From Buxus sempervirens (lineage: Eukaryota; Streptophyta; Magnoliopsida; Buxales; Buxaceae): 64,000 bases of DNA. Below the pieces are notes generated by a model, which searched no databases, was not told where the DNA came from, and worked only from the letters and a program-made list of their open reading frames with translations. The stretch is from the NCBI GenBank assembly GCA_947561395.2, contig OX387183.1, positions 45,626,890 through 45,690,889 on the forward strand. The letters run 5' to 3'. A program made the position numbers and the translations under genes. Of this stretch, positions 15,958 through 62,381 are shown one piece after another. Numbering within the stretch: position 1 is the first letter of the stretch; every line of letters starts with the position of its first letter.

Positions 15958-16297
15958 AGCATTTAATGAATTAAACTCTTTTTTGGAATCCATTTTGCCA
16001 ACTGTCCTAGCCGTCAGAATCGGCTCCTTTTTCGACAAAGTCATCTTTTCAATTTGATTCATCCGTATGATCTTTACCCTTAAAAACGCTTTTTTCGAGA
16101 AGATATCGAGCCGCCGTTTCGATTTCTTCGGGAAGGCGATCGTACTATCAACATCTTTTTCGGGAAGACAGCAGTCTTATCAACGCCCTTCTCGATATTT
16201 TGAATCATTACGAGCTCTCCTTCCTGCATACGTTTCCTTGTTTCGTTCCGTCTTCTTCTTCCTTCGAGCTTTTCTTCTCTGGTTTCTGGTATCGATC
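15958..16297 (+). promoter_or_regulatory. Spacer between the two antisense PMD genes; probable promoter and 5' leader of gene B
   Basis: 340 bp separate the stop of gene A from the ATG of gene B. The last 200 bp are pyrimidine-rich, like the leader of gene A. No clear TATA box was found. Confidence 0.35.
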
Positions 16298-27033: not shown

Positions 27034-27061
27034 TAGTGCTCTTTCAAAGACTAATGGTCCC

Positions 27062-27082
27062 ACCGGGCGTGCCAAAAAGGGA
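27062..27082 (-). promoter_or_regulatory. Primer-binding-site region of the 16.6-kb Tat element
   Basis: Immediately inside the 5' LTR the minus strand reads ATCCCTTTTTGGCACGCCC. The TGGCACGCCC portion lies a few bases in from the LTR, where a primer tRNA would pair. I could not assign the tRNA. Confidence 0.45.
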
Positions 27083-35429: not shown

Positions 35430-37231
35430 TGTGAGACATGGGAAAAAATCAGTCTAATGATTTCCTAAATCATCACACGGGATTTAAATTAAACAAAGAG
35501 TCGCCACCATTCAATTTAGGTGTGAATGGACACCAAAATATTAAATAAGCACAAAAAGCAATTTTAGGGTAAAAACAACCAGAGATGGGTAAGGGGATTA
35601 AGTTATGAACAGGGGAAGGTGTTAGGCACCCCTATTCATCCACACAAGGTGGTTGCTAGGTATTGTTCATGTTAAAATAAAGGAAAAAGCTTGCTATAAA
35701 ATTCATGAAAAATCATAAAAAAAGACAAAATTGTATGGTTTTTTCATACGAATAGTCTGATTGATCCAGAATCTTCAAATATCATCACACCATTCCTAGG
35801 GTTTCATGATCAAAATAAAATTGAGATAAAATCAAATAAAATCAATTTAAAGTGAAAAATCCCAAAAATCTGGCTTCAAGTCAAATTCTAGAAATCTAGA
35901 AAAATATGATTTTTATAAAATATTTCAAAATTGAACTTGAATGATCCAGGATATAGATAAAGCCCAAATTTCACATTAAATCAGAAAATAAAAACCAAAA
36001 ATACCCACGTTGATGAAAAACACCAAAAGGGGAGAATTTAGACCGTAGGGTCTTCTCTCAATAATGAAAAGGATTTAAAATTTATCTCATGAAACCCTAT
36101 AATTTATTTTCAGGCTTCTGGATCTAGATCTACCATATTGATCATGATAGATCCAAAACCTTAGCCTAAAATCACAAAAATCACGAAAACAGTGCTGTAG
36201 GTGCAAAAGTGGTGAAAATCCAAATTTTGGAAAAAAGTGGTGATCTCATGCTATAAACATCATAGATTCATGTTATTCATTCAGATATATCATAAAAAGC
36301 ATTAAAACATGATCAAGATATTTAAAACAGTCACATCTCACAAATTAGAGCACATGGGGGTCTACCCTACGGATCCACCTGTTCCCCTTTCCCCTAGTTC
36401 TCTCTTCACGTTTTACGGCTAGAGAGACTCTTGAGGTACTTAGAGATAGGTTTGGTTACACAAACACAATCACAGGCCTTATTCTATGAAAAAAAGAAAA
36501 AAACAGATATGGGGTTCTATTCTAGGGATCCACCTGTTCCCCTTTTCCCCTAGCTCTCTCTTCAAGTTTTACGGCTAGAGAGACTCTTGAGGTACTTAGA
36601 GACAAGTTTAGGAATACAAAAACAGATATGGCCTTATTCTACAGCAATAGAGATGATCCTATTACATCTAGAATTGAAGACAGAAAATAAAAAGGGATAG
36701 GGGACTTACCTGGATTGAGCAGGCAGGCAGCAGGAGTTCTTTCTCTTCTCTTGGAGCTTCTTAGAATTCCTTGGACTCAAAATTTCGTGGCCCTTAGCTA
36801 GAGGAGAGAGCCTCTATTTATAGACACACCTAGGGGCAAGGCTGGTCCAGAAGGATATGGCCTGGTCTTTAAGATAGAGTGAAATACAGAGATAATGCAC
36901 ATCCATAGCCAACCAAGGTGACTTGAGCGAATAAAATACGTAATTCGTTCATTTAAAGATATATTGGACTACAAATAAAGCTCGGAAATCGAGAGAAGGA
37001 CAAAACTCGCACGTGTCTTTAATGACCGTAAATGCACTACGGTCCAACGGTGACCGTATTTTCACTACGGGCGCGCCCGACCGTAGAGAGATCTCGGGCG
37101 CGACCGGCCCGTGAATGAAATACGGGCAAAGCCTGTTTATTCCATTTTTTATGCAATTTTGACCTATTTTAAGCTCTAATTCCATGTTTTTATTATTTTC
37201 TCATTCTGTAGTGCAATTTGGGGTGTCTACA
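35430..37231 (-). repeat. 3' LTR of the second Tat element, 1,802 bp
   Basis: It runs from TGTGAGACATGGG to GGGGTGTCTACA. A TATA-like TATAAATAGA lies at about 36813-36822 on the minus strand. An internal direct duplication of about 100 bp (about 36352-36450 and 36512-36610, both with GGATCCACCTGTTCCCC and TTTTACGGCTAGAGAGACTC) is shared with the two other LTRs of this family in the window. U3 carries a palindromic half-site array at 37025-37126. Confidence 0.9.
37025..37126. promoter_or_regulatory. Alternating half-site array in U3 (four 19-bp palindromes)
   Basis: Four units of the form MCCGT-N9-ACGGK begin at 37025, 37053, 37080 and 37108. Examples are ACCGT-N9-ACGGT and CCCGT-N9-ACGGG; the third unit ends TCGGG. 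The N9 spacers differ in sequence. The array is about 200 bp upstream of the LTR TATA box in the direction of transcription. Confidence 0.75.
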
Positions 37232-37584: not shown

Positions 37585-37672
37585 ACGGATCAATGCTACC
37601 CGTAGGTTGTTCACGGGCGACCGGGACCGTATTGCTTTAACGGGCGTCTGATGCCCGTACTGATTTTACGGA
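37585..37672. promoter_or_regulatory. Alternating half-site array upstream of the antisense gene
   Basis: Half-sites in strict alternation: ACGGA (37585), CCCGT (37599), ACGGG (37613), ACCGT (37626), ACGGG (37640), CCCGT (37654), ACGGA (37668). Spacers are 9 bp, with one of 8 bp. It is the same pattern as in the LTR U3 regions. The array ends 23 bp before the TATA box at 37696. Confidence 0.75.
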
Positions 37673-37794: not shown

Positions 37795-39575
37795 ATGGCT
37801 TCCCCTATGCCGCTTTCTCCTGCCGTTGAATCTCCTCCTGCAAAACAACCTGTTAGATCAAAACCTCCTAATCTCACCAGGCATAACATTGTGGACTCCT
37901 TCTATGATAGGTGGGTTAACTCCATGACCCTTGATGAGGAGATTCGTTGGGATTCCATCCACTTAGGGCATATCCTACACCTCCCTAAAATTCCCTTTAA
38001 GTGGGAAATTATTGAAGCTTTGATTGGACACTGGGTACCTGAACTGAATCTTTTTCGGTTTGATGATAAAGAGATGACTCCTACCATAGAAGAAATTGAA
38101 ACCATCCTTGGCCTAAGATTTTCTGAAAAAGTTGTGAACCCACCCCTAAAGCTTAGTTATAAAAAAGAGGCTTCCACTTTCTTGGGTATAGGGAAGAAGG
38201 ACTTAGGAGATTCTGATGCACTATTGACCTTGTCCAAGACCTTTTTGACTGAAAAACTTTTGAGGAGTGAAGACAAGGATGCCAGGTTTAATGCTTTGAC
38301 TTTGGTAGTGGTCAATCAGCTGCTTTTTCCACGGGGTGATGACCAGGTTGACTTGGCTCTTATCTCAGTTATCTGCCAGGTTAGGGAACGCGAGAGGTTG
38401 GCCCCTATGATCTTAGCAGAGATATACCAGGCCCTTACTAACTGTTATTTCAGGAAGAAGAAACGCTTCCTTGCCTGCACCCCTATCCTACAGGTAAAAA
38501 ATATACATATATATATATATATATTTTTTTTTTCTTCTTCTCTTTTTCTTTTTCTTCCTCTCTTTTTTTTTTCTTTTTTCCTTCTCTCTTTTTTTTTTCC
38601 TTCTCTTTTTTTTTTCTTCTTTTTTTTTTCTTTTTTTTTTTTCTTTTTGGAAATAATTTGAAATACTCCCTTTTTCTGCAGCTTTGGTTGCTTGACCATC
38701 TTAGCCAGGTTGAAGAAATAACTCGCCGCTTCTTTCCAAGATTGAAAGTTCCTGTTTTAATGAACAATAGGGGATGTCCTAACATCCAAGGTGGCAAGCA
38801 ACGCTGATTCACTTTCTTGGGTACTCTCCAGGATGATCAAGTGAGATGGCCTGGCACTTATCAGCCCACTCCAGAGACAGTGATCAGCTTTAGAGATAAA
38901 AACTTTCTGGTCCTAGCAGGCTTGAAATCTGCTGTTCTCTATCTTCCTTTGAGGGTTCTTCGGCAGTTTAGAGCGATCCAGGGGATTATGATCCCTACTG
39001 GATATGAGAGGCTTTTAGGGCCACTTACACCAGCCTCCATGGGGCTAACTGCTCAATTAATGAAAGAGTGGTCCTACGTCCGTTTTCTGCAGGGTTCTGT
39101 CTTTTCAGAGTCCCATGTGAAGGACTATCACTTTTGGATCAAAGAACAGGTGCAGAATCATGCCCCAGTACCAGAAGATCCTCCTGTGGTTCTTCCTCCT
39201 ACTTATGAAGATATTCTGGAGTCAGAAAGGGCAACCCATAAGCGGCTTCAACAAATATGGGTACGGGAGGCTCAAGAACTTAGGATAAAAGTCCTTGTTC
39301 TTGAGAGAAAGCTTGAAGAGTAGAAGTCTGGCCGCATTGCCATGGAGAAGAAACTTGAAGAACAAAGGCAGGCTCGTCGTTTTGAAGTCCGAGTGATGCG
39401 GAAGAAGTATCAGGATTCCTTGGCCGGCCTTAGGGCGTTGAAGATCAAGCTTTCTTTTTCAGATGAGGTCATCTCCTTTTTGAGTGATCCTGATCCAGAG
39501 GGTGCTTCTGGAATCATTGCAACTCAGGCAGCTAGGATTAGGGAGCTTGAGAAGCAGTTAGGGAGTAGGGGTTAG
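37795..39575 (+). pseudogene. Antisense PMD/DUF7745-like gene of the second Tat element
   Basis: The ATG at 37795 (MASPMPLSPAVESPPAKQ) starts a frame with a PMD-like N-terminal half: VDSFYDRWVNSM, IRWDSIHLGHILHLPKIPF, HWVPELNLFRFDDKEMTPT and IEEIETILGLRF. The TPT-x-EEIE-x-x-LGL signature is that of the plant mobile domain group. A GT-AG intron of about 190 bp, mostly T/C-rich, is predicted from about 38493 to 38681. Downstream, LAGLKSAVLYLPLRVLRQF and a long coiled coil (SERATHKRLQQIWVREAQEL, KLEEQRQARRFEVRVMRKKY, AARIRELEKQLGS) complete the protein. The frame is broken in about two places, so this copy is probably dead. The plan (PMD-like domain, intron, coiled coil) matches the two antisense genes of the 16.6-kb element. 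Confidence 0.65.
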
Positions 39576-40798: not shown

Positions 40799-42622
40799 TG
40801 TGAGACATGGGAAAAAATCAATCTAATGATTTCCTCAATCATCACACGGGATTATATTAAACAAAGAGTCGCCACCATTCAATTTAGGTGTGAATGGACA
40901 CCAAAATATCAAATAAGCACAAAAGGCAAATTTTAGGGCAAAATATCCCTCCTAAAAAAAACAACCAGAGATGGGTAAGGGGATTAGGTTATGAACAGGG
41001 GAAGGTGTTAGGCACCCCTATTCATCCACACAAGGTGGTTGCCAGGTATTTGTTCATGTTAAAATAAAGGAAAAAGCTTGCTATAAAAATCACACGAAAT
41101 CACAAAAAAGAAAAATATATGGTTTTTTCATATGAATAGTCTGATTGATCCAGAACTATCAAACATGATCATACCATTCCTAGGGTTTCATGATCAAAAT
41201 AAAATTGAGATAAAATCAAATAAAATCAATTTAAAGTGAAAAATCCAAAAATCTGGCTTCAAGTCAAAATTCTATAAATCTAGAAAAATATGATTTTTAT
41301 AAAATATTTCAAAATTGAACTTGAATAGTCCAGGACATAGATAAAGCCCAAATTTTACATTAAATCTGAAAATCAAAACCAAAAATACCCACATTGATGA
41401 AGAACACCAAAAGGGGAGAATTTAGACCGTAGGGTCTTCTCTCAATAATGAAAAACAATTTAAAAACAACTTCATGAAACCCTAGAATTTACTTTCAGGC
41501 TTCTGGATCCAAATCTACCATATTGATCATGATAAATCCAGGATCCTAGCCTAAAATCACAAAAATCGCAAAAACAGTGCTGTAGGTGCAAAAGTGGCAA
41601 AAATCCAAATTTTAGCAAAAAGTGGGGATCTCATGCTATAAAAATCATAGATTCATGTTATTCATTCAGATATATCATAAAAGCATTAAAACATGATCAA
41701 GATATTTAAAATAGCCACATCTCACAAATTAGAGCACATGGGGGTCTACCCTACGGATCCACCTGTTCTCTTTTCCCCTAGTTTTCTCTTCACGTTTTAC
41801 GGCTAGAGAGACTCTTGAGGTACTTAGAGATAGGTTTGGTTACACAAACACAATCACAGGCCTTATTCTATGAAAAAAAGAAAAAAACAGATATGGGGTT
41901 CTATTCTAGGGATCCACCTGTTCCCCTTTCCCCTAGTTCTCTCTTCACGTTTTACGGCTAGAGAGACCCTTGAGGTACTTAAAGACAAGTTTAGGAATAC
42001 AAAAACAGATATGGCCTTATTCTACAGCAATAGAGATGATCCTATTACATCTAGAATTGAAGACAGAAAATAAAAAGGGATAGGGAACTTACCTGGATTG
42101 AGCAGGCAGGCAGCAGGAGTTCTTCTCTTCTCTTGGAGCTTCTTAGAATTCCTTGAACTTCAAATTTTCGTGGCCTTTTGCTAGATGAGAGACCCTCTAT
42201 TTATAAGCAGAGCTAGGGGTATGGTTGGTCCAAAGGTTTGGCAAGATAGAGTTTCAGATTGAGTTAAACACAAGGATAATGCTAATCCTTGGCCAACAAG
42301 GATAAATGAGATAATTCGAATAGATAAATAAGAGAATTCGCTTATCCAAGATAGATATTTGTGTGCAGATAAGGCTCAAAAATCAAAAAGGTAAAATTCG
42401 TACAAAGACCCCCGTGCCCGTATATATATTACGGTCGCGCCCTGCCCGTATTATTAATACGGGCACGCCGTGACCGTATATCAACTGCAGGTATGACCAG
42501 ACCATAAACAAAATACGGTCATGATTAGTTTGGCCAGATTTTACACTTTTTTGACCTGTTTCAAATCCCAATTAATATTTTCAATTATTTTCTCATTTTT
42601 AGTGCAATTTGGGGTGTTTACA
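40799..42622 (-). repeat. 3' LTR of the nested element, 1,824 bp
   Basis: TGTGAGACATGGG...GGGGTGTTTACA. The first 430 bp or so are identical by eye to the other LTR of this element, but the last 450 bp (U3) are clearly different. A TATA-like box lies at about 42195-42205 on the minus strand. Confidence 0.9.
42417..42519. promoter_or_regulatory. Alternating half-site array in U3 of the nested element's 3' LTR
   Basis: Units start at 42417, 42445, 42473 and 42501, exactly 28 bp apart. The first two are perfect (CCCGT-N9-ACGGT, CCCGT-N9-ACGGG); the last two have one decayed half-site each. The surrounding U3 sequence differs from that of the other LTRs, yet the spacing is kept. Confidence 0.8.
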
Positions 42623-45600: not shown

Positions 45601-45992
45601 CTGTATTCTAATGAAGAAACTTCAAATCTTCTTCTATCTTTTCTGTTGAAGACTGTGGGTCATCTTTGGTTCCAAAGGCCATAAAATTGGTCACTTCATA
45701 ATTTTGCAAAATATTCTTCTCATGACATTTAAAAGATTTGAATTTTTGTATAAAATGTCTTTTGCTTCGATTTTGGTCTCAAAATTGAGCCCAATGTCAA
45801 AGTCATATTCAACTCAATGAAATTCAATAAGAGATATGATTCATAAGTAAAAGGACCTTGCTGAAAACTTCTTTTTTTTTTTTCTAGAAAAATGTTAAAG
45901 GGAAAAATCTTTTTTTTTTTTTGAAGAGCCTTTATTAAAATCACTTCCTGAGAACAGGGCTCCTTAGGATCCTCAGGAAATGTGCATTCTTC
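42623..45992. other. 3' internal region of the nested element, no coding capacity recognised
   Basis: It begins with the polypurine tract (42623-42641). A segment containing GAGCTCTCGTGGCTATGAA occurs twice (near 42825 and 43160), an internal duplication. Long T/C-rich runs lie at about 43620-43880, 44610-44660 and 45000-45065. The stretch 43900-45300 is related to the 3' region of the host element (39576-40565). Antisense PMD-like coding sequence is absent. Confidence 0.6.
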
Positions 45993-47672
45993 TTATGCAG
46001 GTTTCTTTTCAGAGAACATGGGAGTTCGAAAACTGCCCTTGTTCTCAAAGGCAAAAATTGACTTTTCTCCCTTTTTCAGATACTTTCTTTCTCCTACTGA
46101 GTAAGGCAAGCCTTCCTGCTCATAACCAAGAGCATTTCTTTCAAGATAAACCCTGACTGTTGGACCAATAGGAGCGATAAGCTGAGAAGGGTCAAATCTT
46201 CTTTCTCCAGAGAAAATTGCCCCTATTGCATTTGAGCTGCCTGCCCCATTGTTATCGGTAGGTGGGATGGGAGTGACTGAATTTAATGATAAAGAGTTAT
46301 TATCTAGCAAATCCTGAATTGCATGCTTTAGGGCCAAGCAACGATCTATGGTATGCCCTGGAGTGCTCATATGATAATCACAGATTGCAGATGAATCATA
46401 ATTCTTCCCCTTGCTTGCATGAGGATTTGGCAACCTCAAAGTCACATAACCCTTCTGAAGTAAGGTAGGCAAAAGTTCAGATGGTCTCATAAGCAGTTTA
46501 GAAAATTCCCTTCTCTTCCTTACTTCTGTTTCCTCCTTCACAGGTTGTGCAGAAGGGACATTAATTTGAATAGGTAGCAAAGGAACTTGATGGGTTGGCT
46601 TGATAGGAGGTGGATGGACATTGATTTGAAAGGGTTCCCTAGGAAGTTGCACCATATTCACTTCTGCTTCTCTCCTTTCTTCATTCTTTCTTCTTCCATT
46701 ACCATTCTCCTTTTTCTGTGTAGAGATAGTGGTGGAATCTTCCTGGTTCAACACTGCAGAGTAATCAGCTATTTTCCCAGACTTGATCCCATCTTCAATT
46801 CTGTCTGCCACTTGCACTAGGGCAGCAAAGTTGGTGGTAGTTTGACCCACCAAGTGACTATAAAATGGTTGCCCCAATGTCATGATGAAAGTTGAAATCA
46901 TTTCTGGTTCTCCCATGGGTGGCTTGACTTGTGCAGCCAACTCCCTCCACCTTTTAGCATATTGCCTTATGGTTTCATCATTTCTCTTTGTCATCCTCAT
47001 CATGTCATACCTATCTAGTATAATCTCAGAGTTGAACCTGTATTGTGCCAAAAAGGAATCTGCTAAATCCTTCCACCTTCTTATTTTCCCATGATCCAAA
47101 GTGGCAAACCACCTCAAAGCAGCTCCAGTTAAACTCCTCTGGAAGAGCTGAATTAGTATGCCGTCATCTCGACCGAATTGGCATAGGGCCCCGCAGTATA
47201 ACTTCAAATGGCTCATTGGGCAGCCAGTGCCATCATATTTATCAAAATCTGGGCATTTAAACTTGGCCGGTAGACATACATCGGGGTATAGGCACAGATC
47301 TTCAAAATTGGTGCCCCCAAAGTTACGTATCCCTTTCACCTCCCTCATTTCATCCTGGATCATCTCCAGCCTGTGCATGAATTTTCTTTCTATTTCATCC
47401 CTCATCTTTTCTTTTTCATTCTCTTTCTCAGACTCAACCATCTCCTCCCTGATCAGTATAGGTTCAGGGGTAGGTTCAGAAATGGGTTCAGGAATAGGTT
47501 GAACCGGAGGTGGGATATTGATTGGAAGTGGAGGTGCTTGGTTCTGGGCTTGAACTTGTTGGGCCTGCACCGATAGTATGTTCTCTAGCATTCGGGCTAG
47601 TCCTGCCACTTGCTCCTGAAGCAGGACAAGATCTGGGTTAGGAGCATCAGCTTCAGTCTCAATGGGATTCAT
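45993..47672 (-). CDS. gag: Gag of the nested Tat element
   Basis: 559 residues starting MNPIETEADAPNPDLVLLQE. The Pro-rich N-terminal part and a short coiled coil (KEKMRDEIERKFMHRLEMI) precede the gag domain (CLPAKFKCPDFDKYDGTGCP, LIQLFQRSLTGAALRWFATL, ETIRQYAKRWRELAAQVKPP). A Cys/His motif follows (CDYHMSTPGHTIDRC). It is roughly 80% identical by eye to the gag of the surrounding element but ends before the protease. An open gag without pol suggests that the element can still contribute, or once contributed, its own particle protein. Confidence 0.85.
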   Translation of the reverse strand: MNPIETEADAPNPDLVLLQEQVAGLARMLENILSVQAQQVQAQNQAPPLPINIPPPVQPIPEPISEPTPEPILIREEMVESEKENEKEKMRDEIERKFMHRLEMIQDEMREVKGIRNFGGTNFEDLCLYPDVCLPAKFKCPDFDKYDGTGCPMSHLKLYCGALCQFGRDDGILIQLFQRSLTGAALRWFATLDHGKIRRWKDLADSFLAQYRFNSEIILDRYDMMRMTKRNDETIRQYAKRWRELAAQVKPPMGEPEMISTFIMTLGQPFYSHLVGQTTTNFAALVQVADRIEDGIKSGKIADYSAVLNQEDSTTISTQKKENGNGRRKNEERREAEVNMVQLPREPFQINVHPPPIKPTHQVPLLPIQINVPSAQPVKEETEVRKRREFSKLLMRPSELLPTLLQKGYVTLRLPNPHASKGKNYDSSAICDYHMSTPGHTIDRCLALKHAIQDLLDNNSLSLNSVTPIPPTDNNGAGSSNAIGAIFSGERRFDPSQLIAPIGPTVRVYLERNALGYEQEGLPYSVGERKYLKKGEKSIFAFENKGSFRTPMFSEKKPA

Positions 47673-47904
47673 GGTGTGAGCTCTTGATCTGGTTACAGGA
47701 GCTATGATAGCAAGTGTATTGGTACCTGGAAATAAAGGAAAGAAATATCAGTGCCAATTTAATCTCATTCACATACCTACGTATGCCTATGTGCAAGCTG
47801 GGTGAACACGAGTTTGGATTTGTTTCTTTCTTTATTTGCTTCTTTTCTTTTTTTTTTTGAATTGAATTGTTGGAATATTCTAGGGCTTCCAACAGGTCCT
47901 ACAA

Positions 47905-49450: not shown

Positions 49451-49610
49451 AGGAACCTTTCTCTCACATTTTTTTTTTCAATTATTTTGTTTTTGTTTTT
49501 GTTTTTTTTTTTGAAGCATTTTATTCAAACTTGTTTCCCTTTATCATTATTTAAAGGTTAAAGGAAGATTTTAGTGGGAAAAACTGATTAAAGTTGAATT
49601 TTCCGAGAAA

Positions 49611-49741
49611 ACCGTATATTCACCACGGTCCGGCCTTGCCCGTATTCATATTACGAGCAAGCCGTGACCGTATGACCAACACGGGCGCGCTCAGCCCGTA
49701 TACCCAATACGGGCGAGCCCAGCCCGTGTACTAAATACGGT
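49611..49741. promoter_or_regulatory. Alternating half-site array in the leader of the nested element (five units)
   Basis: Units start at 49611, 49639, 49667, 49695 and 49723, exactly 28 bp apart. All are MCCGT-N9-ACGRK. The N9 cores differ (for example ATATTCACC, ATACCCAAT). This is the longest and most regular array in the window. Confidence 0.85.
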
Positions 49742-50950
49742 TTTACGGAGCTCTTTTAAATTTTTTCAGTTTTTACATGGTTTGATCACTTTGATTGCTC
49801 ATCCAAACATACGGTTCACCCATTGCAGAGCTTCTAAACTGTCCCAAAGTGGACCTTGGCCTTTTTGCTAAAACACATGTTTAGGAAGGCACATGTACCT
49901 TCCAAATTGACACCATACTCAAGAATTAGGTACCCTTTTTGTTGCCTCTTGTGTGTACATAGGGTAGGATTGATTCTAAACAGAGTTAGAGACTCTTCCT
50001 ATGGGCTGCACCAATTTTAAAAACATGCATATTTTGGGACCAATTTTATCCCGAACCAATGGGCACCATGACACCCCTATGACATGAAAATAATGCAAAA
50101 CAATAGGATTACCTTGTTACCTTGTTTACCTTCCATATGGCATCCGCATTATGCCCTGGTTTGTAAGCCATGCACACGGCCTTCCCACAATCATACAAAC
50201 CCATATTCCCACGTAATTGTGTACTTTAGCAAAAAACGTGTAACTCCACCTTCAAGCGTAGGGGTTTTGGGTTTTGGCTTAATGGCAACCTAGCACTCAA
50301 GCCTAGTGATGACCAGAATCCCAGATCCACGTTATCATCACATCATTAGCTCAAAGTTCTAAGGTGAATGTTTTCACTTTCGCTTTCCGAAGTATCGACC
50401 TCGTTGCGCCAAGCTACACACATTCGGGTTCAACTTCCTATAGGTTAAGGGTAGGCTGTGTAAAAAAAATAAAAGGTGCACAGTGCATTGTAAAAATAGG
50501 GTGCATTCACAACGTCCCAAACCCTTGCCACTCTTTTCGCAGCCATGCATAAACAAACCAAGGCATAATAGGAAATCATATTTAAAATAAACAAGTAACT
50601 AAAGCAATCCTATAGCACCTAAAACATGCTCATAAAAAAAATCATCTATCATGCAAACATATGATCATGTTATACACCCAAAATCATCATGGAGATCATG
50701 CTGAAAATTAAAACATGCTATTATAAAAAATATAGCAAAAAATAAGCATAGTTCATCTAAACGGACCTCCCCTACGCATGTTTGTAGAAATAATCCTATA
50801 AATCAAAATTAAGCATGTTTCTACCCCCATGGATTCTTAAGCAATCATTCAGATTTAAAACATGTTCAACATGCTTAAGAACACAAAATAGCAAGCAAAT
50901 CAAAAAAATCAAAAACATGAACAAACACCAAAAGGCTCAAATCCACAAGT

Positions 50951-50969
50951 CCCCAGCATAGTCGCCAGT
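50951..50969 (-). promoter_or_regulatory. Primer-binding site of the nested element
   Basis: Next to the 5' LTR the minus strand reads ACTGGCGACTATGCTGGGG. TGGCGACT...GCTGGGG resembles the tRNA-Arg-type primer site I recall for Ogre/Tat elements. It fixes the right-hand LTR as the 5' LTR. Confidence 0.7.
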
Positions 50970-52774
50970 TGTGAGACATGGGAAAAAATCAATCTAATGA
51001 TTTCCTCAATCATCACACGGGATTATATTAAACAAAGAGTCGCCACCATTCAATTTAGGTGTGAATGGACACCAAAATATCAAATAAGCACAAAAGGCAA
51101 ATTTTAGGGCAAAATATCCCTCCTAAAAAAAACAACCAGAGATGGGTAAGGGGATTAGGTTATGAACAGGGGAAGGTGTTAGGCACCCCTATTCATCCAC
51201 ACAAGGTGGTTGCCAGGTATTTGTTCATGTTAAAATAAAGGAAAAAGCTTGCTATAAAAATCACACGAAATCACAAAAAAGAAAAATATATGGTTTTTTC
51301 ATATGAATAGTCTGATTGATCCAGAACTATCAAACATGATCATACCATTCCTAGGGTTTCATGATCAAAATAAAATTGAGATAAAATCAAATAAAATCAA
51401 TTTAAATTGAAAAATCCAAAAATCTGGCTTCAAGTCAAAATTCTATAAATCTAGAAAAATATGATTTTTATAAAATATTTTAAAATTGAACTTGAATAAT
51501 CCAGGACATAGATAAAGCCCAAATTTCACATTAAATCTGAAAATCAAAACCAAAAATACCCACATTGATGAAAAACACCAAAAGGGGAGAATTTAGACCG
51601 TAGGGTCTTCTCTCAATAATGGAAAACGATTTAAAAACCACATCATGAAACCCTAGAATTTATTTTCAGGCTTCTGGATTCAGATCTATCATATTGATCA
51701 TGATAGATCCAAGATCCTAGCCTAAAATCACAAAAATCACGAAAACAGTGCTGTAGGTGCAAAAGTGGCAAAAATCCAAATTTTGTCAAAAAGTGGGGAT
51801 CTCATGCTATAAACATCATAGATTCATGTGATTCATTCAGATTCATCATAAAAACCATTAAACATGTTCAGGATATTCAAAATAGCCACATCTCACAAAT
51901 TAGAGCACATGGGGGTCTACCCTACGGATCCACCTGTTCTCTTTTCCCCTAGTTCTCTCTTCACGTTTTACGGCTAGAGAGACTCTTGGAGTACTTAGAG
52001 ATAGGTTTGGGTACACAAACACAATCAAAGGCTTTATTCTAGAAAAAAAGAAAAAAACAGATATGGGGTTCTATTCTAGGGATCCACCTGTTCCCCTTTC
52101 CCCTAGTTCTCTCTTCACGTTTTACGGCTAGAGAGACCCTTGAGGTACTTGGAGACAAGTTTAGGGATACAAAATAGATATGGCCTTATTCTACAGCAAT
52201 AGAGATGATCCTATTACATCTAGAATTGAAGACAGAAAATAACAAGGGATAGGGGACTTACCTGGATTGAGCAGGCAGAGCAGCAGGGATTCCTTTCCTT
52301 CTCTTGGAGCTTTTGATTCTTCAAAATTTCGTGGCCCTTAGCTAGAGGAATGAGCCTCTATTTATAGACACACACAGGGGTATGGTTGGTCCAAAAAGAT
52401 ATAGCATGATCCTCAGGATAGAGAGAAAGTTGGAGATAATGCCCATCCATAGCCAACCAAGGTGGCCTCAGCGAATAAAAGACATAATCCGCTCGTTTAA
52501 AGATATATTGGACTTCAAATAAAGCTCGGAAATCGAGAGGATGACAAAACTTGCACGTGTCTTTAATGCCCGTAAATACACTACGGTCCAACGGGGACCG
52601 TATAGATACTACGGGCGCGCCTGCCCGTAGATATTTTGCGGGCGAGATCGGCCCGTGAAGCCAATACGGGCAAAGCCTGTTCATTCTATTTTTAGGCCTT
52701 TTTGACCTGTTTTAAGCTCTAATTACATGTTTTTATTATTTTCTCATTTTGTAGTGCAATTTGGGGTGTCTACA
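50970..52774 (-). repeat. 5' LTR of the nested element, 1,805 bp
   Basis: TGTGAGACATGGG...GGGGTGTCTACA. Its U3 end (right part) is more like the LTR at 35430-37231 than like its own partner LTR at 40799-42622. A TATA-like box lies at about 52357-52366 on the minus strand. Confidence 0.9.
52569..52670. promoter_or_regulatory. Alternating half-site array in U3 of the nested element's 5' LTR
   Basis: Four units start at 52569, 52597, 52624 and 52652, with one 8-bp spacer in the same place as in the 37025-37126 array. Confidence 0.8.
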
Positions 52775-55700
52775 CCTGGCCATTCTCTTCTGATACAATT
52801 GGCCATGACAAAGCGCTTTTAATCGCTTTTCCTCTATTAGATTGAGTTGATCATGTCTTGATTGTATCCATTCGGCTTCTTCTAATTCTGCTTCCATTAG
52901 CACTCTTAATGAAGGTATTTCCACTTCCACTGGTAAAACTGCTTCCATTCCATATACTAAGGAGTACGGGGTTGCCCCTGTAGAAGTTCGAATTGAGGTT
53001 CTGTAAGCATGCAGAGCAAGTGGCAGCATTTCATGCCAATCTTTAAAACTCACTACCATCTTCTGAATGATCTTCTTTATATTCTTATTCGCTGCTTCCA
53101 CTACCCCATTCATCTTTGGTCTATAAGGAGCTGACTTATGATGGGTAATCTGAAATTGTTCACACATCTTCCTCATGTCTTTGTTCTTAAGGTTTGAAGC
53201 ATTGTCTGTTACTATGGCACTTGGCAAACCGTAGCGACAAATGATATTGTGCTTCACGAATTTCAAAACGTGGCTACTTGTAATGTTTGCATATGAAGCT
53301 GCCTCTACCCACTTGGTGAAGTAATCAATTGCTACAAGTATAAACCTGTGTCCATTTGATGCCTTTGGAGAGATCATTCCAATGACATCTATACCCCACA
53401 TAGAAAAAGGCCACGGAGATGTCATACTGTGTAATTCACTTGGGGGTGCATTCTTGTTATCCGCGTACACTTGGCATAAATGACACCTTTTAACGTGTAT
53501 ATAGCAATCATGCTCCATAATCGACCAGTAATATCCCAATCGCAGAATCTTCTTGGCAAGCATATGCCCATTCATATGGGGTCCACACACTCCTCCATGT
53601 ATCGTTTCAACTATCCTTTCTGACTCAGTCTTTGCAACACATCTGAGTAGTATATCATTGTGTGATCTTTTGTACAACTGACCACTACTTAGTAAGAACT
53701 GTCCTGCCAGCCTCTGTATTGTTCTTTTCTCTGTAGAGGTGACATTTTCTGGCAAACTTCGATCATTTAGGAAGTTCTTAATGTCTTGAAACCATGGTAC
53801 ATCTTCTTCTGGGGTTTCTTCTAAAACAAGGCAATAAGCTGGTTCATCTCTGACTTCAATTTCCAGTGGTCTAATATCAACACCTTCTGGCATACTGACC
53901 ATTGAAGCCAATGTTGCTAGAGCATCTGCAAACTGATTTTTGGCCCTTGGCATATAATTGAAAGAAATTCGAGTAAATTTATTGCTTATTTCTTCCAAAT
54001 ACTGGTGATAGGGGATCAATTTGTGATCCTTGGTTTTTCATTCACCAGTTGTTTGGAAGATGATAAGACTCGAATCCCCATATACGTCAAGTTCCTCTAC
54101 TTCATGGTCTAAGGCAGTTTGCAACCCAATTATGCATGCTTCATACTCTGCTATATTGTTCGTGCATTGGAACCTTAACTTCACTGCGATCGGGATATGT
54201 GCCCCATCTGGCTTGATCAGAACAGCCCCTATTCCATTTCCATTCATATTGGCGGCCCCATCAAAAAACATTTGCCATGAGCTTTCACCTTCTTCCTCTT
54301 CAGCAAACAGGATTGCCTCATCAGGGAAGTTGGTCTTTAAGGGTTGGTATTCTGGTAAAGGGTGCGCAGCTAAGTGATCTGCTATGGCTTGACCCTTAAT
54401 GGCCTTCTGTGTGATATAGGTGAGGTCAAATTCAGAGAGTAACAACTGCCACTTTGCTGTTCTGCCAGTTAAAGCCGGTTTCTCAAATAGATACTTCAAA
54501 GGGTCCATTCGGGATATTAATAATGTGGCGTATTTGAGTTGCCCACACTAATGCACAACAAGTCTTTTCCAAGGGGGAATACTTTGCTTCATATTCTGTA
54601 AACTTCTTGCTTAGGTAGTAAATCGCCCTCTCCTTTCTGCCTGTATCATCATGCTGTCCCAAGACACACCCCATTGATGTCTCCAAAACTGACAAGTATA
54701 AGATCAATGGTCTCCCTGGAGTTGGTGGCACTAGTACAGGTGGGTTCAATAAGTATTCCTTTATTGTGTCAAAGGCTTCTTGGCAATCGTCATTCCAGAC
54801 TGTCGGGTTGTTCTTTCTTAGAAGTTTGAAAATTGGTTCACAGATGGTGGTGAGCTGTGCTATGAACCGGCTTATGTACTGAATCCTTCCAAGAAAACCC
54901 CAAACTTCCCTCTCGGTTCTAGGTGATGGCATTTCAATGATTGCTTTAGCTTTAGCTGGGTCTATCTCAATTCCCCTTCTACTTACTATAAAGCCCAATA
55001 ATTTTCCTGATGTAGCCCCAAAGACGCATTTCGCAGGGTTGAGCCTTAGACTGTATTTCCTAAGCCGGTCAAATACCTTCTTCAAGTTAATCAAGTGGTC
55101 TTCTTCTTCACATGATTTGGCTATCATGTCATCCACATAAACCTCCATCTCCTTATGGATCATATCATGGAATAAGGCTGTCATGGCCCGCTGGTAGGTT
55201 GCCCCAGCATTCTTAAGTCCAAATGGCATGACAGTGTAGTGGAAGGTACCCCAAGGGGTGATAAAGGCTGTCTTCTCTTGGTCTTCCTTAGCCATCTTAA
55301 TTTGATTGTATCCAGAAAACCCGTCCATGAATGAGAATAGACTATGTACAGCAGTGTTGTCCACCAAGATGTCAATATGTGGAAGTGGAAAATCATCCTT
55401 TGGACTTGCCTTATTCAAGTCTCTGTAATCTACGCACATTCTGACCTTTCCATCCTTCTTTGGTACTGGCACTATATTTGCAAGCCATTCAGGGTACGTG
55501 GAGACTGCTAAGAATCCGGCTTGGAATTGTTTAACCACTTCATCTTTGACCTTCAATGTCCATTCAGGTTTTAACCTTCTCAGTTTCTGTTTAACTGGCT
55601 TAGCATCTGGTAGAATAGGTAGCCTGTGCACCACCATATCTGTGTCTAACCTTGGCATATCCCGATGCGACCATGCAAATACATCTTCATAGTCGGCTAA

Positions 55701-56852
55701 GAACCGTATCATTTCTTCCCGCTGTACCTCAGATAGACATACCCCAATCTTCACTATTTTTGGGTCATCTTCAGTCCCTAGGTTTATTGATATGGTCTCT
55801 TCAATATTGGGTTGGACCCCCTTTTCATGACGCTCTAATTGATATGTGATTTCTTTTGGAACGTCGTCTTCTTCGTCCTCGGTCTCTTCCTCAACCCCCA
55901 TTAGGTCAAAGTCGAGCTCAAGGTCGAAGTCATATTCATCCTGATCCAATTCCGTTTGCTTATATGGTTCATAAATGGTTTGGACCTTTTTGAAAAATTT
56001 ATCTTTTCTAGAAAAAAATGGAAAATCTTTTTGTGTTTTTTGAGAGCCTTCTACAAAATCTTTCCCTGAAGACGAAGGCTCATTAAAACCTTCAGGGGAA
56101 GGGCATTCCACTAATGGAGTTTTTTTTTTGGAAGCCATGTTTGTTTGCCAAACAAACGCGGCTTCAAAAGTAAGAGGAGTTTCCTCCCAATTATTCAGAA
56201 TAAAAGAATCTGGGGCAGGGATACAAGCCTGCTCCTCAAGCTCAGGGTCTGCGTCTAAAATCACCAATACTGGGTGAGTTGCATCGCCTGCTTCTTCTGT
56301 AGGGCTAGTTCCAAATGGAACTTCTACTGCAGCCCAATCAATAAAGGGTAGCTCCTCTGCTACTTCTTCTTGCTTGCCTTCTGTCATGGCAAAGAATGCT
56401 CCAATGTCCTCTGAAAAGTCCTGTTCTTGTTCTGCCTGTGGCCCAGGCCCACCCGATGCTTGTGGAGGTGGAGATGGAACATATGGTTGTACGGTTGAGG
56501 ATTTAGGTTTCTGGAATGGATTGATATTGTAGTATGGAGGTTTGGACTGATCCTCAGGAGGAGACAGTTGAATCATGTGAGAAATCCTTGGAAAAGTTTC
56601 CCTGATATGAGGGAATTTCATGGTTTCTATCTGCCCCAGTCTTCTCCATTTCCTTGGCTTGGACCCCAACCCTGCTCTGTGAACCATCTTCTTAACCTGT
56701 ACCGGTTCTATCCTTCCTTGTAGGTTAACCCCCAGACCTTTTCCAGGGTGAAAATGGTACTTTTCTAGCACATTCTTGACCATTTTCTCAGCACAGGTCA
56801 ATTTTCCTTCTTTTTCCTGATACCCCCCCAGGTATATAATTAACCGTTTCAA
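52775..56852 (-). pseudogene. pol: Pol of the second Tat element (RT, RNase H, archaeal-type RNase H, integrase)
   Basis: In transcription order from 56852, a Glu/Asp-rich N-terminal part leads to the reverse transcriptase (MCVDYRDLNKASPKDDFPLP, YVDDMIAKS near 55130), then the gypsy RNase H, then the archaeal-type RNase H (FFDGAANMNGNGIGAVLIK, NNIAEYEACIIGL). Integrase follows, with its zinc region (HGGVCGPHMNG, CHLCQVY) and DDE core (WGIDVIG, TDNASN, GVVEAANKN). The last part of pol is at 40566-40798, across the nested insertion. The frame is broken in about two or three places, so the gene is dead, but all catalytic domains are recognisable. The start overlaps the end of gag-protease. Confidence 0.88.
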
Positions 56853-59800
56853 ATTGGAAAGAGTGAAATGTCATCTTATCAGCAGTCATTTCCATGTTAA
56901 TACAGGGTACATCAGGGGACCACATGGGGGGAACCAAATTTTCAGCTAGGACAGTAATCACCTTTTGCCCTCTAATATATTTGACTCTTTGGTGGAGGGT
57001 AGATGGTATGGCCCTAGCTGTATGAATCCACGGCCTTCCTAGGAGTAGGTTGAAAGCTGCAGGTATATCCATCACCTCAAATGTGATGTTAAAAATATAC
57101 GGTCCAATTGTGACCGGCAGTTCAACCTCCCCTAGGGAGTGTGTTTTAGAGCTATCAAATGCTCTTATGATTCTTCCATTTTGTTTTATTTTGTTTCGCT
57201 CCAAATTGAGCTTAACAAAGGTTACTAACGGGCAGACATTGAGAGCCGACCCATTATCAATCAAGACCCAGGCTATCATGCAACCCTTACTGAGTACAGC
57301 TATGTGCAATGGGTCAACATGATGGTACCCTGCTGGGCTGATCTCGGTCTCTGAAAAAGTTATCACATTGTGGGATAAAATTTGACCAACCATCCGGCCT
57401 AGTTGGTCTGGTTCAATGTTTTTAGGCACATGGGCCCCCTGGAGTATCCTTAACAAGGAGTCCCTATGTTTTTCAGAATTTAACAAAAGGCCCAGTATTG
57501 AGATCTGGGCAGGGACCTTGTTCAACTGTTCGATAACATTGAACTCACTCTTTTTTATTATCTTCATGAGGTCAGCAGCCTCACTGTTAGTTACCTGAGG
57601 GGCCTCTTCCCCTACCTTGGCCTTGCCTTTATTTTTTTCTTCTTCTTTCTTTTCTTTCTCTGTCTCTTTTTGTTTTTCTTCCACCCCTACACATTTTCCT
57701 GACCTCATCATGAGGTTTACTTCTTCCTTGCTTTCAGCTGCAGGGCATGTAGTGGTAAAAGCTTCACTGTAGTTCCATGGTACAGCCGATTCAGAGTAGG
57801 AAGGCTTGGGGACATTTACCACTAATGGAGGAAGTTTGGACTTGGATGCGGAAGTCTGGGTAAATGGAACATTAATAACCAGAGGTGGAAGTTGCTTTGA
57901 TGGAGAAACATTAACAACCGAAGGTGGAAGTTGTTTTGATTGAGGGGTTGTAGAAGTGACTGATGCACTAAGGGGGTCACAGTTTATGACCAATGGTGGT
58001 TTAGCATGAATGGGTGGAGTAAAAGTGGATGGATTGTAATTAATGACCAAAGGTGGATTGGCGATGTTCATCTGGGCCATGAGGGATGAGACCCGGTCCA
58101 AAGATGAGCTAATGTTCTTTGCAGCACTATCATTCCCCTTTGAAATCATATTTACCTCTTTGTCTTCATTTCTCCTGTCAAAATATACTTTGACCGTTGT
58201 CCCTATGGGAGCAATTAATTGAGATGGGTCAAAGGTTATTTTGTCAGAAGAGATGACTCCTATGACATTAGATGGGCCTACCCCGTGATGCTGGGGCAGT
58301 GGGTTTTGTCCAATATCAGTTCTTGGAGGATTGGGAGCCCCTGTATTGAAAGACAGGGTATTCTGGTCCAGTAAATCCTGAATGGCATGTTTCAAAGGCC
58401 AGCACTTGTCAGTAGGGTGCCCAGGTGCACCCATGTGGTAATCACAAGTGGTGGAGGGGTCAAAATTTCTCCCCTTGGGTGCATTCGGATTGGGTTCTCT
58501 TAGAGTGATATACCCTCCTTGCAATAAAGTGGGCAGCAATTGAGAAGGAGTCATTGGAATAGGGGTGAAAACCCTATTTCTCCTTGCTGCAAAATAGGCA
58601 TCCTTTTCCTCCTTAGTAAAAACCCTTTTTTGGTCTGAAGGTGCTGCTGGAACATTAACCCTCATGGGGGCTGGGGTAGATGGAGCAGGTGGAGTAGGAA
58701 AATGAGCTGGTATGTTGATTTGTATGGGCTTGTTAGGGCCAGATGGTGGCTGTACCATGTTTACCTCACCCTCCTTCTTGTTCCCATTCTTTTTTATCCC
58801 GCTTCCTTTCTTCAGATTAGGGTCTTGCTGATTGACCATAGCAGAGTGGTCAATTATTTTACCCGACCTGATTCCGTCTTCGATTCGGTCGGCCACTTGT
58901 ACCAAGGCAGCAAAATTGGTGGTGGTCTGACCCACCAGGTGGCTGTAGAATAGTTGACCCAAAGTGCTGATGAAAGTAGAAATCATTTCCTGTTCTAGCA
59001 TGGGTGGCCTGACCTGGGAGGCCGTCTCCCTCCACCTCTTGGCATATTGCCTTACAGTCTCATCCCTTCCTTTGCTCATTCTCATGACGTCGTACCTGTC
59101 TGGCACGATCTCTGAATTGAACCGGTATTGAGCCAGGAATGCATCGGCTAGGTCCTTCCATCTTTTGATCTTTCCATGGTCCAGAGTAGCGAACCATCTT
59201 AATGCGGTTCCAGTCAGGCTCCTTTGGAAAAGTTGAATCAAGATACCCTCATCCTGTCCGAACTGGCATAGGGCACCGCAATACAACTTTAGGTGGCTCA
59301 TGGGGCAACCAGTGCCATCATACTTGTCCAAGTCTGGGCACTTAAACTTAGCCGACAGGTTAACATTGGGGTATAGGCACAGGTCTTCAAAATTGGTGCC
59401 CCCAAAGTTGTTTACCCCTTTGACTTCCCTTAGTTCATCCTGGATCATTTCCAGTCTTTGCATGAACTTCTTTTCCATTTCTTCCCTCATTTTTTCCTTT
59501 TCCTTAGCCTTTTCTGATTCAACTGTTTCATCCCTGGTCAGTATAGGTTCAGGGGTAGGTTCATAGACGGGTTCAGGAGTTGGTTGCACTGGAGGTGGAA
59601 TGTTGACTTGGGGTGGAGGTGTAGGGTTAGATGTGGATGCCTGGTTCTGGGCCTGCATTTGTTGGGCCTGCACTTGTTGGGCCTGTACTGACAGTATGTT
59701 CTCTAACATTCGGGCTAGTCCTGCTACTTGTTCTTGGAGTAGAACAACATCTGGATGAGGAGCATCAGCTTCATCTTCAATGGAATTCATGGCGCGAGCT

Positions 59801-59880
59801 CTTGATCTGGTTACAGGAGCTATGATTGCAAGTGTATTAGTACCTGGTTTGAAAATAAAGGAAAAGATATCAGTGCCCAA
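56788..59880 (-). CDS. gag: Gag-protease of the second Tat element
   Basis: 1,030 residues are open; the likely start is the internal MNSIEDEADAPHPDVVLLQE, which aligns with the start of the nested element's gag. The gag domain includes LSAKFKCPDLDKYDGTGCP and LIQLFQRSLTGTALRWFATL. The Cys/His motif is CDYHMGAPGHPTDKC. A spacer with repeated Pro-Pro-Leu-Val-(I/V)-Asn motifs (PPLVINYNPS, PPLVINCDP, PPLVINVPF, PPLVVNVP) is unusual. The aspartic protease at the C-terminal end has WVLIDNGSALNVCP and LLLGRPWIH. The frame is intact, unlike pol. Confidence 0.88.
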   Translation of the reverse strand: MGTDIFSFIFKPGTNTLAIIAPVTRSRARAMNSIEDEADAPHPDVVLLQEQVAGLARMLENILSVQAQQVQAQQMQAQNQASTSNPTPPPQVNIPPPVQPTPEPVYEPTPEPILTRDETVESEKAKEKEKMREEMEKKFMQRLEMIQDELREVKGVNNFGGTNFEDLCLYPNVNLSAKFKCPDLDKYDGTGCPMSHLKLYCGALCQFGQDEGILIQLFQRSLTGTALRWFATLDHGKIKRWKDLADAFLAQYRFNSEIVPDRYDVMRMSKGRDETVRQYAKRWRETASQVRPPMLEQEMISTFISTLGQLFYSHLVGQTTTNFAALVQVADRIEDGIRSGKIIDHSAMVNQQDPNLKKGSGIKKNGNKKEGEVNMVQPPSGPNKPIQINIPAHFPTPPAPSTPAPMRVNVPAAPSDQKRVFTKEEKDAYFAARRNRVFTPIPMTPSQLLPTLLQGGYITLREPNPNAPKGRNFDPSTTCDYHMGAPGHPTDKCWPLKHAIQDLLDQNTLSFNTGAPNPPRTDIGQNPLPQHHGVGPSNVIGVISSDKITFDPSQLIAPIGTTVKVYFDRRNEDKEVNMISKGNDSAAKNISSSLDRVSSLMAQMNIANPPLVINYNPSTFTPPIHAKPPLVINCDPLSASVTSTTPQSKQLPPSVVNVSPSKQLPPLVINVPFTQTSASKSKLPPLVVNVPKPSYSESAVPWNYSEAFTTTCPAAESKEEVNLMMRSGKCVGVEEKQKETEKEKKEEEKNKGKAKVGEEAPQVTNSEAADLMKIIKKSEFNVIEQLNKVPAQISILGLLLNSEKHRDSLLRILQGAHVPKNIEPDQLGRMVGQILSHNVITFSETEISPAGYHHVDPLHIAVLSKGCMIAWVLIDNGSALNVCPLVTFVKLNLERNKIKQNGRIIRAFDSSKTHSLGEVELPVTIGPYIFNITFEVMDIPAAFNLLLGRPWIHTARAIPSTLHQRVKYIRGQKVITVLAENLVPPMWSPDVPCINMEMTADKMTFHSFQFETVNYIPGGVSGKRRKIDLC

Positions 59881-61010: not shown

Positions 61011-61070
61011 GGAACCTTTCTCTCACATTTTTTTTTATTCAATTATTTTCTTCTTTTTTTTTTTTTTTTT

Positions 61071-62381
61071 TTGAAGCATTTTATTCAAACTTGTTTCCCT
61101 TTATCATTATTTAAAGGTTAAAGGAAGATTTTAGTGGGAAAAACTGATTAAAGTTGAATTTTCCGAGAAAACCGTATATTCACCACGGTCCGGCCTTGCC
61201 CGTATTCATATTACGAGCAAGCCGTGACCGTATGACCAACACGGGCGCGCTCAGCCCGTATACCCAATACGGGCGAGCCCAGCCCGTGTACTAAATACGG
61301 TTTTACGGAGCTCTTTTAAATTTTTTCAGTTTTTACATGGTTTGATCACTTTGATTGCTCATCCAAACATACGGTTCACCCATTGCAGAGCTTCTAAACT
61401 GTCCCAAAGTGGACCTTGGCCTTTTTGCTAAAACACATGTTTAGGAAGGCACATGTACCTTCCAAATTGACACCATACTCAAGAATTAGGTACCCTTTTT
61501 GTTGCCTCTTGTGTGTACATAGGGTAGGATTGATTCTAAACAGAGTTAGAGACTCTTCCTATGGGCTGCACCAATTTTAAAAACATGCATATTTTGGGAC
61601 CAATTTTATCCCGAACCAATGGGCACCATGACACCCCTATGACATGAAAATAATGCAAAACAATAGGATTACCTTGTTACCTTGTTTACCTTCCATATGG
61701 CATCCGCATTATGCCCTGGTTTGTAAGCCATGCACACGGCCTTCCCACAATCATACAAACCCATATTCCCACGTAATTGTGTACTTTAGCAAAAAACGTG
61801 TAACTCCACCTTCAAGCGTAGGGGTTTTGGGTTTTGGCTTAATGGCAACCTAGCACTCAAGCCTAGTGATGACCAGAATCCCAGATCCACGTTATCATCA
61901 CATCATTAGCTCAAAGTTCTAAGGTGAATGTTTTCACTTTCGCTTTCCGAAGTATCGACCTCGTTGCGCCAAGCTACACACATTCGGGTTCAACTTCCTA
62001 TAGGTTAAGGGTAGGCTGTGTAAAAAATAAAAGGTGCACAGTGCATTGTAAAAATAAGGTGCATTCACAACGTCCCAAACCCTTGCCACTCTTTTCGCAG
62101 CCATGCATAAACAAACCAAGGCATAATATGAAGGCATATTTAAAGTAAACAAATACACAAAACAATCCTATGGCATCTAAAACATGCTCATAAAAAAATT
62201 ATCTAATCATGCAAACATATGATCATGTTATACACCAAAAATCATCATGGAGATCATGCTGAAAATTAAAACATGCTATCATAAAAATATAGCAAGAAAT
62301 AAGCATAGTTCATCAAAACGAACCTCCCCTACGCATGTTTGTAGAAACAATCCTATAAATCAAAATTAAGCATGTTTCTAC
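61071..62381 (-). other. 5' leader of the second Tat element, cut at 62381
   Basis: Nearly identical to 49513-50560 over its first 1.05 kb, then more diverged. The half-site array is at 61171-61301. The leader stops where another LTR-type sequence starts, corresponding to position 50830 or so in the nested element. Confidence 0.75.
61171..61301. promoter_or_regulatory. Alternating half-site array in the leader of the second Tat element (five units)
   Basis: Same five-unit array as at 49611-49741, with exact 28-bp spacing (starts 61171, 61199, 61227, 61255, 61283). Confidence 0.85.

Follow-up and report, generated by a model that had tools for sequence, protein, structure and literature searches.

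Rows of short inverted half-sites, spaced with great regularity, recur across a stretch of retrotransposon sequence from Buxus sempervirens. This raises the question of what reads them. A first-pass annotation of this 64-kb stretch (64,000 nucleotides, hereafter the window) had reported seven arrays in which the half-sites MCCGT and ACGGK alternate every 14 bp. We searched the window for exact MCCGT-N9-ACGGK and recovered all seven. The pattern occurred 21 times, whereas 100 shuffles averaged 0.03 occurrences and never gave more than 1, and all 21 occurrences fell within the seven arrays, with none elsewhere in the window. We then shuffled the sequence region by region for six arrays, omitting the copy at 61171 as identical to that at 49611. 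For each of the six, the observed count was equalled in 0 of 2000 shuffles, so the spacing does not appear at the chance rate.

Phased palindromes in nested Tat-type elements

The window holds nested minus-strand Tat-type retrotransposons, with element B inserted in the integrase region of element A and LTR D in the leader of A. The 3' LTR of A lies at 35430..37231 (minus strand) and its 5' LTR at 64982-66762 in window coordinates, beyond the window end; the two are 97.9% identical, and the TSD CATGG stands on both sides. On the minus strand, A carries a gag ORF (56788..59880), a pol ORF with G-patch, RT and RNase H (54483..56870), a second RNase H (RVT_3, 54041-54547, E 6e-10) and an integrase ORF interrupted by the B insertion (52736..54037). 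The second, archaeal-type RNase H after RT-RNase H points to the Tat lineage, in agreement with the Tat setting proposed in the annotation. A also has a further Tat/Ogre feature, an antisense PMD-bearing extra ORF between pol and the 3' LTR.

Element B is a gag-only element that spans 40799-52774, with the TSD CCTGG at both ends. Its 3' LTR (40799..42622), gag ORF (45993..47747), PBS (ACTGGCGACTATGCTGGGGA, 50950..50969) and 5' LTR (50970..52774) are all on the minus strand. The sequence ACTGGCGACT adjoins the 5' LTR of B, as its PBS, and also the 5' LTR of A; it may be complementary to tRNA-Arg. The available part of PMC9289625 gives tRNA-Arg as the PBS complement in the Tat/Ogre lineage. The two LTRs of B (40799-42622 versus 50970-52774) are near-identical over the first 450 alignment columns (the U5 end) and about 93-98% identical further on, and their U3 regions are only about 61-67% identical, though the TSD matches. 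This mismatch may go back to gene conversion or a swap of U3 that followed the insertion. LTR D (minus strand, TSD CTACC) runs from 62383 to 64000 and on to 64832 past the window end, and its relatives flank gag-only interiors. Other repeats were also seen. Leader tandem repeats (TCTGAAATTCAAAGGCTTTCAGAGGCCC) at 47911-49454 and 60049-61013 contain an inverted pair, TCTGAAA-N9-TTTCAGA, which has a 9-bp spacer too, but a conserved one. A 20-bp repeat (GGGTTAAACGGGTCATTATC) at 2237-2866 recurs at 2237-3037 of a locus elsewhere in the genome (L074), near a D-type LTR.

The seven arrays were assigned to these elements. Those at 37025..37126 (3' LTR of A), 52569..52670 (5' LTR of B) and 42417..42519 (3' LTR of B, of a diverged U3 type) are in the U3 regions of homologous LTRs, which comprise two diverged U3 types. 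The leader of B, between PBS and gag, holds an array of five palindromes at 49611..49741, and that in the leader of A at 61171..61301 is identical to it. The array at 37585..37672 lies in the putative promoter of an antisense (plus-strand) DUF7745/PMD gene, and that at 63114..63215 inside the inserted LTR D; past the window end, D has another array at 64067-64250. All seven are thus present, but they are not independent, because several are homologous or identical copies. The independent contexts are U3 (two diverged types), the leader, the internal antisense-promoter array at 37585 and the LTR D array at 63114.

To describe the unit, we derived a consensus from 25 palindromes, in which degenerate units and homologous U3 copies were kept and the identical 61171 array was left out. 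The result was GMCCGTRnWnnnWnYACGGKC, a 21-bp palindrome. The conserved motif extends beyond the 19-bp unit MCCGT-N9-ACGGK of the annotation: a G precedes M, an R follows T, and position 7 is W. Some units are degenerate, for example with ACGAG at 49653. Inside palindromes, half-site starts were 14 bp apart in 120 of the 120 pairs at distance 13-15; these comprised 56 pairs from 30 loci chosen by protein, 21 from the window and 43 from loci fetched by place, with the five palindromes of locus L042, which is the window's own, counted twice. Between palindromes, the start distance was 14 in 84 cases and 13 in 13 cases, never 15. The alternation every 14 bp with a rare 8-bp spacer therefore holds overall, with the refinement that the 8-bp spacer occurs only between palindromes and never inside one. 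An inner distance that is always 14 and an outer distance of 14 or 13 point to an inflexible dimer site, with little more freedom in the step from one dimer to the next. The M and K positions combined freely in window units (A-T 3, A-G 5, C-G 5, C-T 4), and antisense-promoter units gave C-G 25, T-G 23, C-A 21, C-T 21, A-G 3, A-A 2 and T-A 1. This lack of covariation is not what an RNA stem would give; it favours two DNA contacts made independently.

We scanned the 676.5-Mb plant assembly for the triple MCCGT-N9-ACGGK-N9-MCCGT. The results showed 25,502 matches (12,795 forward and 12,707 reverse), compared with 7 for the reversed pattern (5 and 2). The first 30 triple-match loci represent 11 distinct places, the first on one contig and a non-random sample, and all 11 are in A/B-type or D-type LTR-like sequence. 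Several carriers were then read. L075-L076 and L077-L078 were each taken as one D-type element because matching arrays stand about 10-12 kb apart. Neither in these two, nor in the B interior, nor in the B-type element L079 was RT, RNase H or integrase matched (tblastn, E 0.01) or DUF7745 exon 1 found. Matches to gag were obtained in the B interior, L075, L076, L078 and L079, and a match to the pre-RT piece of pol in L079. These gag-only elements keep arrays in the LTR (B in the leader too), and no antisense-promoter array was seen in those read. In L080, a copy of the A type, pol and integrase are present, and exon 1 is represented by no more than its last 19 residues. In other collections, the pattern had 0 matches in viral_contigs, and the 5' LTR of B had no match among phages. 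Prokaryote genomes gave 11 matches to the four-half-site pattern, 8 of which are by eye simple tandem repeats. In Marinitenerispora sediminis (L004, L007), a 28-bp tandem repeat fits the pattern through its unit, and its spacers are conserved.

Half-site constraint and promoter positions

The annotation had suggested selection on the half-sites and on their phase. We compared half-sites with spacers across copies, and half-sites diverged less in all three contexts examined (U3, leader and antisense promoter). Between the U3 regions of the A 3' LTR and the B 5' LTR, half-sites, taken as 6 columns wide, differed at 3 of 48 positions and spacers at 16 of 56 (Fisher p 0.004), with 128 of 1679 positions differing in the rest of the LTR. 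Between the leaders of B and L073, half-sites, here 5 columns wide, differed at 2 of 50 positions and spacers at 15 of 81 (p 0.017); the latter split into 8/45 for inner and 7/36 for outer spacers, and the flank differed at 16/313. Pooling U3 and leader gave a Fisher p of 1.8e-4.

For the antisense promoter, diversity was measured in 27 of the 30 protein-chosen copies, leaving out L042 (rearranged array), L052 (deletion) and L065 (insertion). Pi was 0.044 in the core, 0.057 at M/K, 0.129 in inner spacers and 0.189 in outer spacers; from the array downstream to the ATG it was 0.055. The permutation p-value was 1e-4, with columns, not copies, as units and all 27 copies belonging to one young family. 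The quiet positions within the 19 bp were 0-5, 7 and 13-18. In the same copies, exon 1 had a pi of 0.0395 over all positions versus 0.097 at third positions, indicating that the exon-1 protein is under constraint. Core CpG columns were slightly more variable than other core columns (0.051 versus 0.036). Against the diverged U3 of the B 3' LTR, half-site CpGs were kept in only 6 of 10, so the half-site constraint is not absolute. The diverged U3 types retain both the array and its position. In the window's own antisense-promoter array, most spacers are unlike those of relatives, with half-sites and phase retained, even though the exon 1 of the window shares 96-97.6% identity with three copies set beside it. 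These comparisons support selection on half-sites and phase, as would be expected for a multimeric DNA-binding protein.

We then located the arrays relative to TATA boxes. In 9 of 12 cases, the distance from the U3 array of an A/B-type LTR to the downstream TATA on the LTR strand is 202-203 bp, and it is unchanged in L073, whose longer U3 array has an additional unit. The remaining three are the 42417 array at 212 bp, that of L021 at 240 bp with one exact unit left, and that of L039, which is without an exact TATA. The corresponding minus-strand TATAAAT motifs in the window are at 36822 for array 37025 (203 bp), 42205 for array 42417 and 52366 for array 52569 (203 bp). In D-type LTRs, the 64067-type array lies 44 or 16 bp from the TATA in 6 of 7 copies, a difference of one 28-bp unit, and 114 bp from it in L013; the second array of the window's LTR D (64067-64250) is 44 bp from another TATAAAT. 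The 63114 array is 5 bp from a minus-strand TATAAAT at 63109 in the window copy, and no TATA was found close to 63114-type arrays in other D-type copies. The antisense array (37585-37672) ends 24 bp before a TATATAA at 37696. Leader arrays had no TATA match within 300 bp.

The antisense DUF7745 gene and its half-site types

The antisense gene lies between the PPT, on the 3' LTR side, and pol of element A. Exon 1 occupies 37795..38493 on the plus strand, within an ORF (37795-38661) that matches DUF7745 (PF24924, E 4.9e-21) and PMD (PF10536, E 2.1e-12). A putative exon 2 at 38682..39575 (plus strand) would follow a GT...AG intron, with the GT donor at 38494, the acceptor just before 38682 and an in-frame join; the window copy has two stops in it. 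The C-terminal stretch of exon 2 looks by eye like a coiled coil, which would suit a dimer. The AlphaFold model of exon 1, built from 4 sequences, was poor (pLDDT 48), and a protein search with the spliced DUF7745 gave one distant match. To our knowledge, no DNA-binding domain has been described in DUF7745. Among 30 DUF7745 loci of one family, chosen by protein alone, 29 carried one or more exact palindromes before the ATG, and the remaining locus (L045) had none there.

To look beyond this family, we searched with PF24924, which yielded 118 scored genes, all over the cut-off, from 5751 first-look candidates. Fourteen of the 118 were sampled to cover the ORF-length groups, and about 1.1 kb upstream of each was read. 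Phased palindromes were present in 7 of the 14. The other seven (L081-L083, L087-L090), mostly from a group with a single ORF of about 498 aa, had no array in this region, and their upstream regions are partly alike; these genes are a different kind of carrier. The seven array-bearing genes have a common frame, xCCG-N11-CGGx, with differing flanks, and CCG-N11-CGG occurred 18 times in them, compared with 15 for ten other gaps together.

Four half-site types were distinguished. L093 is of the MCCGT type, and its exon 1 is 91% identical to the window protein. The Y type (L084, L085, L086) has AACCG-N11-CGGTT, with steps of 28, 41 and 28 in L085; L092 has a weaker AACCG-like row, with one exact CCG-N11-CGG and the rest, mainly near-matches, assigned by eye. 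The S91 type (L091) has AACCGAA-N7-TTCGGTT with steps of 38 and 39, and the S94 type (L094) has CCGCA-N7-TGCGG in four 28-bp steps, with one unit exact and four carrying one or two mismatches. Exon-1 identity to the window protein was 76% for S91, 76% for S94 and 72% for Y. Between the four types, DUF7745 exon 1 was 72-79% identical, as judged from one gene per type and two for the MCCGT type. In the S91 antisense promoter (L091+L096, 2739-2816), the steps exceed 28 by about one helical turn.

We next asked, from further sequence at four places, whether the LTR carries the same half-site as the antisense promoter. In one Y element, AACCG-N11-CGGTT occurred 10 times, compared with 0 in the shuffle and one occurrence each for gaps of 10 and 12. 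Five of the sites are in the LTR, whose end was judged from TGTCTACA plus a GCCCCC tract, one is internal and four are in the antisense promoter. MCCGT-N9-ACGGK is absent from this element, and the AACCG form is absent from the entire window. LTR and antisense promoter have thus switched half-site together in this Y element, the only one followed as far as its LTR. Another AACCG row, with 28-bp steps, stands 1.6 kb upstream in S91. For S94, a stretch of 3.3 kb contained no matching LTR array, and at the L093 place the 2 kb before the promoter contained no array. Genome-wide, AACCG-N11-CGGTT gave 19,195 matches versus 1,691 for the reversed pattern, a count that takes in D-type AACCGT...ACGGTT sites and other-looking sites (AACCGGCAACTCAGGCCGGTT). 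The placing of an array in the antisense-gene promoter and the half-site switch go beyond the first-pass annotation, and the switch is invisible within the window.

The window holds another autonomous Tat-type element, element 2 (11565-28171), with LTRs 99.3% identical, pol and a second RNase H. It has four antisense ORFs at 12870-19052, two with PMD and two without a Pfam family over the cut-off, and no phased MCCGT array. Its PMD had no match in the protein search, and no solved structure was found for it. A 22-bp tandem array (GGGGATACAAGCACAATCTTAA type) flanks element 2 at 11314-11564 and 28172-29130, and element 2 seems to have inserted into it. We rejected this array as an operator of element 2, since it lies outside the LTRs.

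Candidate readers of the arrays and related systems

That the arrays are protein binding sites is well supported; which protein binds them we infer. In our preferred reading, to which we give somewhat better than even credence, they would serve as operators at which a dimeric protein, most likely the antisense-encoded DUF7745, binds DNA and controls both promoters. Rigid inverted half-sites, free spacers, gain and loss of whole units and promoter positions make such a protein the plain reading. As cis-regulatory operators of Tat/Ogre-type LTR retrotransposons, the arrays would take one dimer of a sequence-specific protein per 21-bp palindrome, and each array would seat three to five neighbouring dimers at intervals of 27-28 bp (about 2 2/3 helical turns). 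Because the same code stands before the LTR promoter, in the leader and before the antisense gene, one factor may govern the transcription of genomic RNA and feed back on the antisense gene. The DUF7745/PMD-type protein of that gene is the most likely factor, and the joint switch of LTR and antisense promoter, which follows the DUF7745 subfamily, is as expected if DUF7745 reads the arrays. Related subfamilies with diverged DUF7745 would use the same array geometry with other half-sites, and gag-only elements (B, D) would borrow the factor by keeping arrays. Activation or anti-silencing appears likelier than repression: in most cases a TATA box lies downstream of the array, gag-only elements have preserved the arrays, and VANC, discussed below, offers an analogy.

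A wider proposal, which we put forward tentatively and at just under an even chance, is that antisense DUF7745/PMD proteins are dimeric sequence-specific DNA-binding regulators, with each array-bearing subfamily reading its own phased array and the protein coevolving with the arrays in LTR, leader and antisense promoter. The frame xCCG-N11-CGGx would be fixed, with steps of 28 bp or one helical turn longer; the bases beside CCG would be a changeable code, and gag-only families would live by copying it. The array-free DUF7745 genes (7 of 14), the PMD of element 2, the single Y element and S94 argue against a general rule.

The main rival, which we consider unlikely, is that a host transcription factor, most probably a NAC-type dimer, binds the arrays, a host regulatory site having been captured. 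According to the accessible text of PMC4081100, NAC proteins bind CGT[G/A] as dimers, and palindromic CGTN7-8ACG sites have been published. The array half-site contains CGTR in inverted pairs, which fits this core: position 5 of the 25 units is A in 19, G in 5 and T in 1. A host factor would also fit the arrays kept by gag-only elements without the antisense gene. The annotation knew of no described factor with this site, and for spacing and flank this stands, but not for the core, to which the dimeric, inverted NAC site is related (PMC4081100, as far as available). The arrays have N9 in all 120 pairs rather than N7-8; a distance of 12 (N7) was seen once, in the window, and in neither of the other two sets, so that CGT-N7-8-ACG spacing is not what the arrays show. 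Their conserved flank is GMC, compared with TTN for NAC, and rows of three to five phased sites do not appear in the available text of PMC4081100. In the other DUF7745 subfamilies, the bases beside CCG are altered (A, C or Y for T) and the geometry is kept. The joint change of LTR and antisense promoter in the Y element has no evident reason under a host factor.

It is more doubtful still that a host silencing factor reads the arrays, or that another element protein (gag or integrase) binds them. A related gag is common to the A-, B- and D-type elements read and is the sole gene seen in all three. However, constrained sites in the element's own promoters argue against purely harmful recognition, and gag or integrase has no evident need of sites upstream of the antisense gene. 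Functionless tandem-repeat turnover of a 28-bp unit is very improbable. Whole 28-bp units have indeed been gained and lost (44 versus 16 bp to the TATA; the longer U3 array in L073), and the 8 of 11 prokaryotic matches look like simple tandem repeats. Neutral turnover nevertheless predicts equal decay of half-sites and spacers, the opposite of what was found in three contexts, and diverged U3 types retain the array and its position; a simple satellite was rejected on the half-site constraint. Least credible is a role at the RNA level, with every palindrome a transcript hairpin: the inverted repeats could pair as 5-6 bp stems, but arrays upstream of a TATA are not expected in a transcript starting there, and we rejected the hairpin because M and K do not covary in window or antisense-promoter units.

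The preferred reading, an operator read by the antisense-encoded DUF7745, was then set against known systems. In the open-licence literature, we found neither the array sites as literal sequence, nor DUF7745, nor a description of a shared, phased, subfamily-specific operator. With a defined operator present in LTR, leader and antisense promoter, and varying in step with the protein subfamily, the function of the antisense gene becomes a simple question of binding. Such an operator would also illustrate how separate regulatory networks arise among retrotransposon families and by what route gag-only families enter one.

In HTLV-type retroviruses, an antisense-encoded regulator acts on its own LTR; the logic is analogous, and we claim no sequence relation. 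HTLV-type antisense genes are mentioned in the available parts of PMC11963269 and PMC7264820, which deal with Grande gene23/TRP28 of Tat/Retand elements. As in element A, that antisense gene lies between pol and the 3' LTR and tandem arrays are common; gene23 has its own promoter and a nuclear protein, for which a regulatory role was proposed (PMC11963269, PMC7264820, same parts). In contrast, the antisense gene here is DUF7745/PMD, not TRP28, and the text available from these two papers describes no operator-like array common to LTR and antisense promoter. PMD is present in 57% of Ogre elements according to the accessible portion of PMC6317226; such elements resemble element A in the PMD match and the second RNase H, and no DNA target or arrays are described for them in that portion. 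Antisense genes in Tat/Retand, PMD in Ogre and tandem arrays are thus already known from what is available of PMC11963269, PMC7264820 and PMC6317226, and the function of the antisense accessory gene in plant Tat/Retand-type elements was called unknown there in 2020 and 2025 (PMC7264820, PMC11963269).

The VANC/VANDAL system offers a parallel to a code that changes with its protein. As described in the available part of PMC5735166, short repeated non-coding motifs are linked to the elements and differ between related families with related proteins, and the VANC6 motifs extend to AT9TSD1, an unrelated element. VANDALs are DNA transposons, and each VANC21 or VANC6 motif is one word of 8-9 bases rather than a phased palindrome; VANC binding and anti-silencing were shown by experiment (PMC5735166, same part), whereas protein binding to the arrays here is predicted. 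The trait of a motif that differs between families with diverged proteins is found here as well, in the four half-site types. If the proposed explanation is true, the arrays would give a function to unexplained antisense genes and make them a retrotransposon counterpart of VANC.
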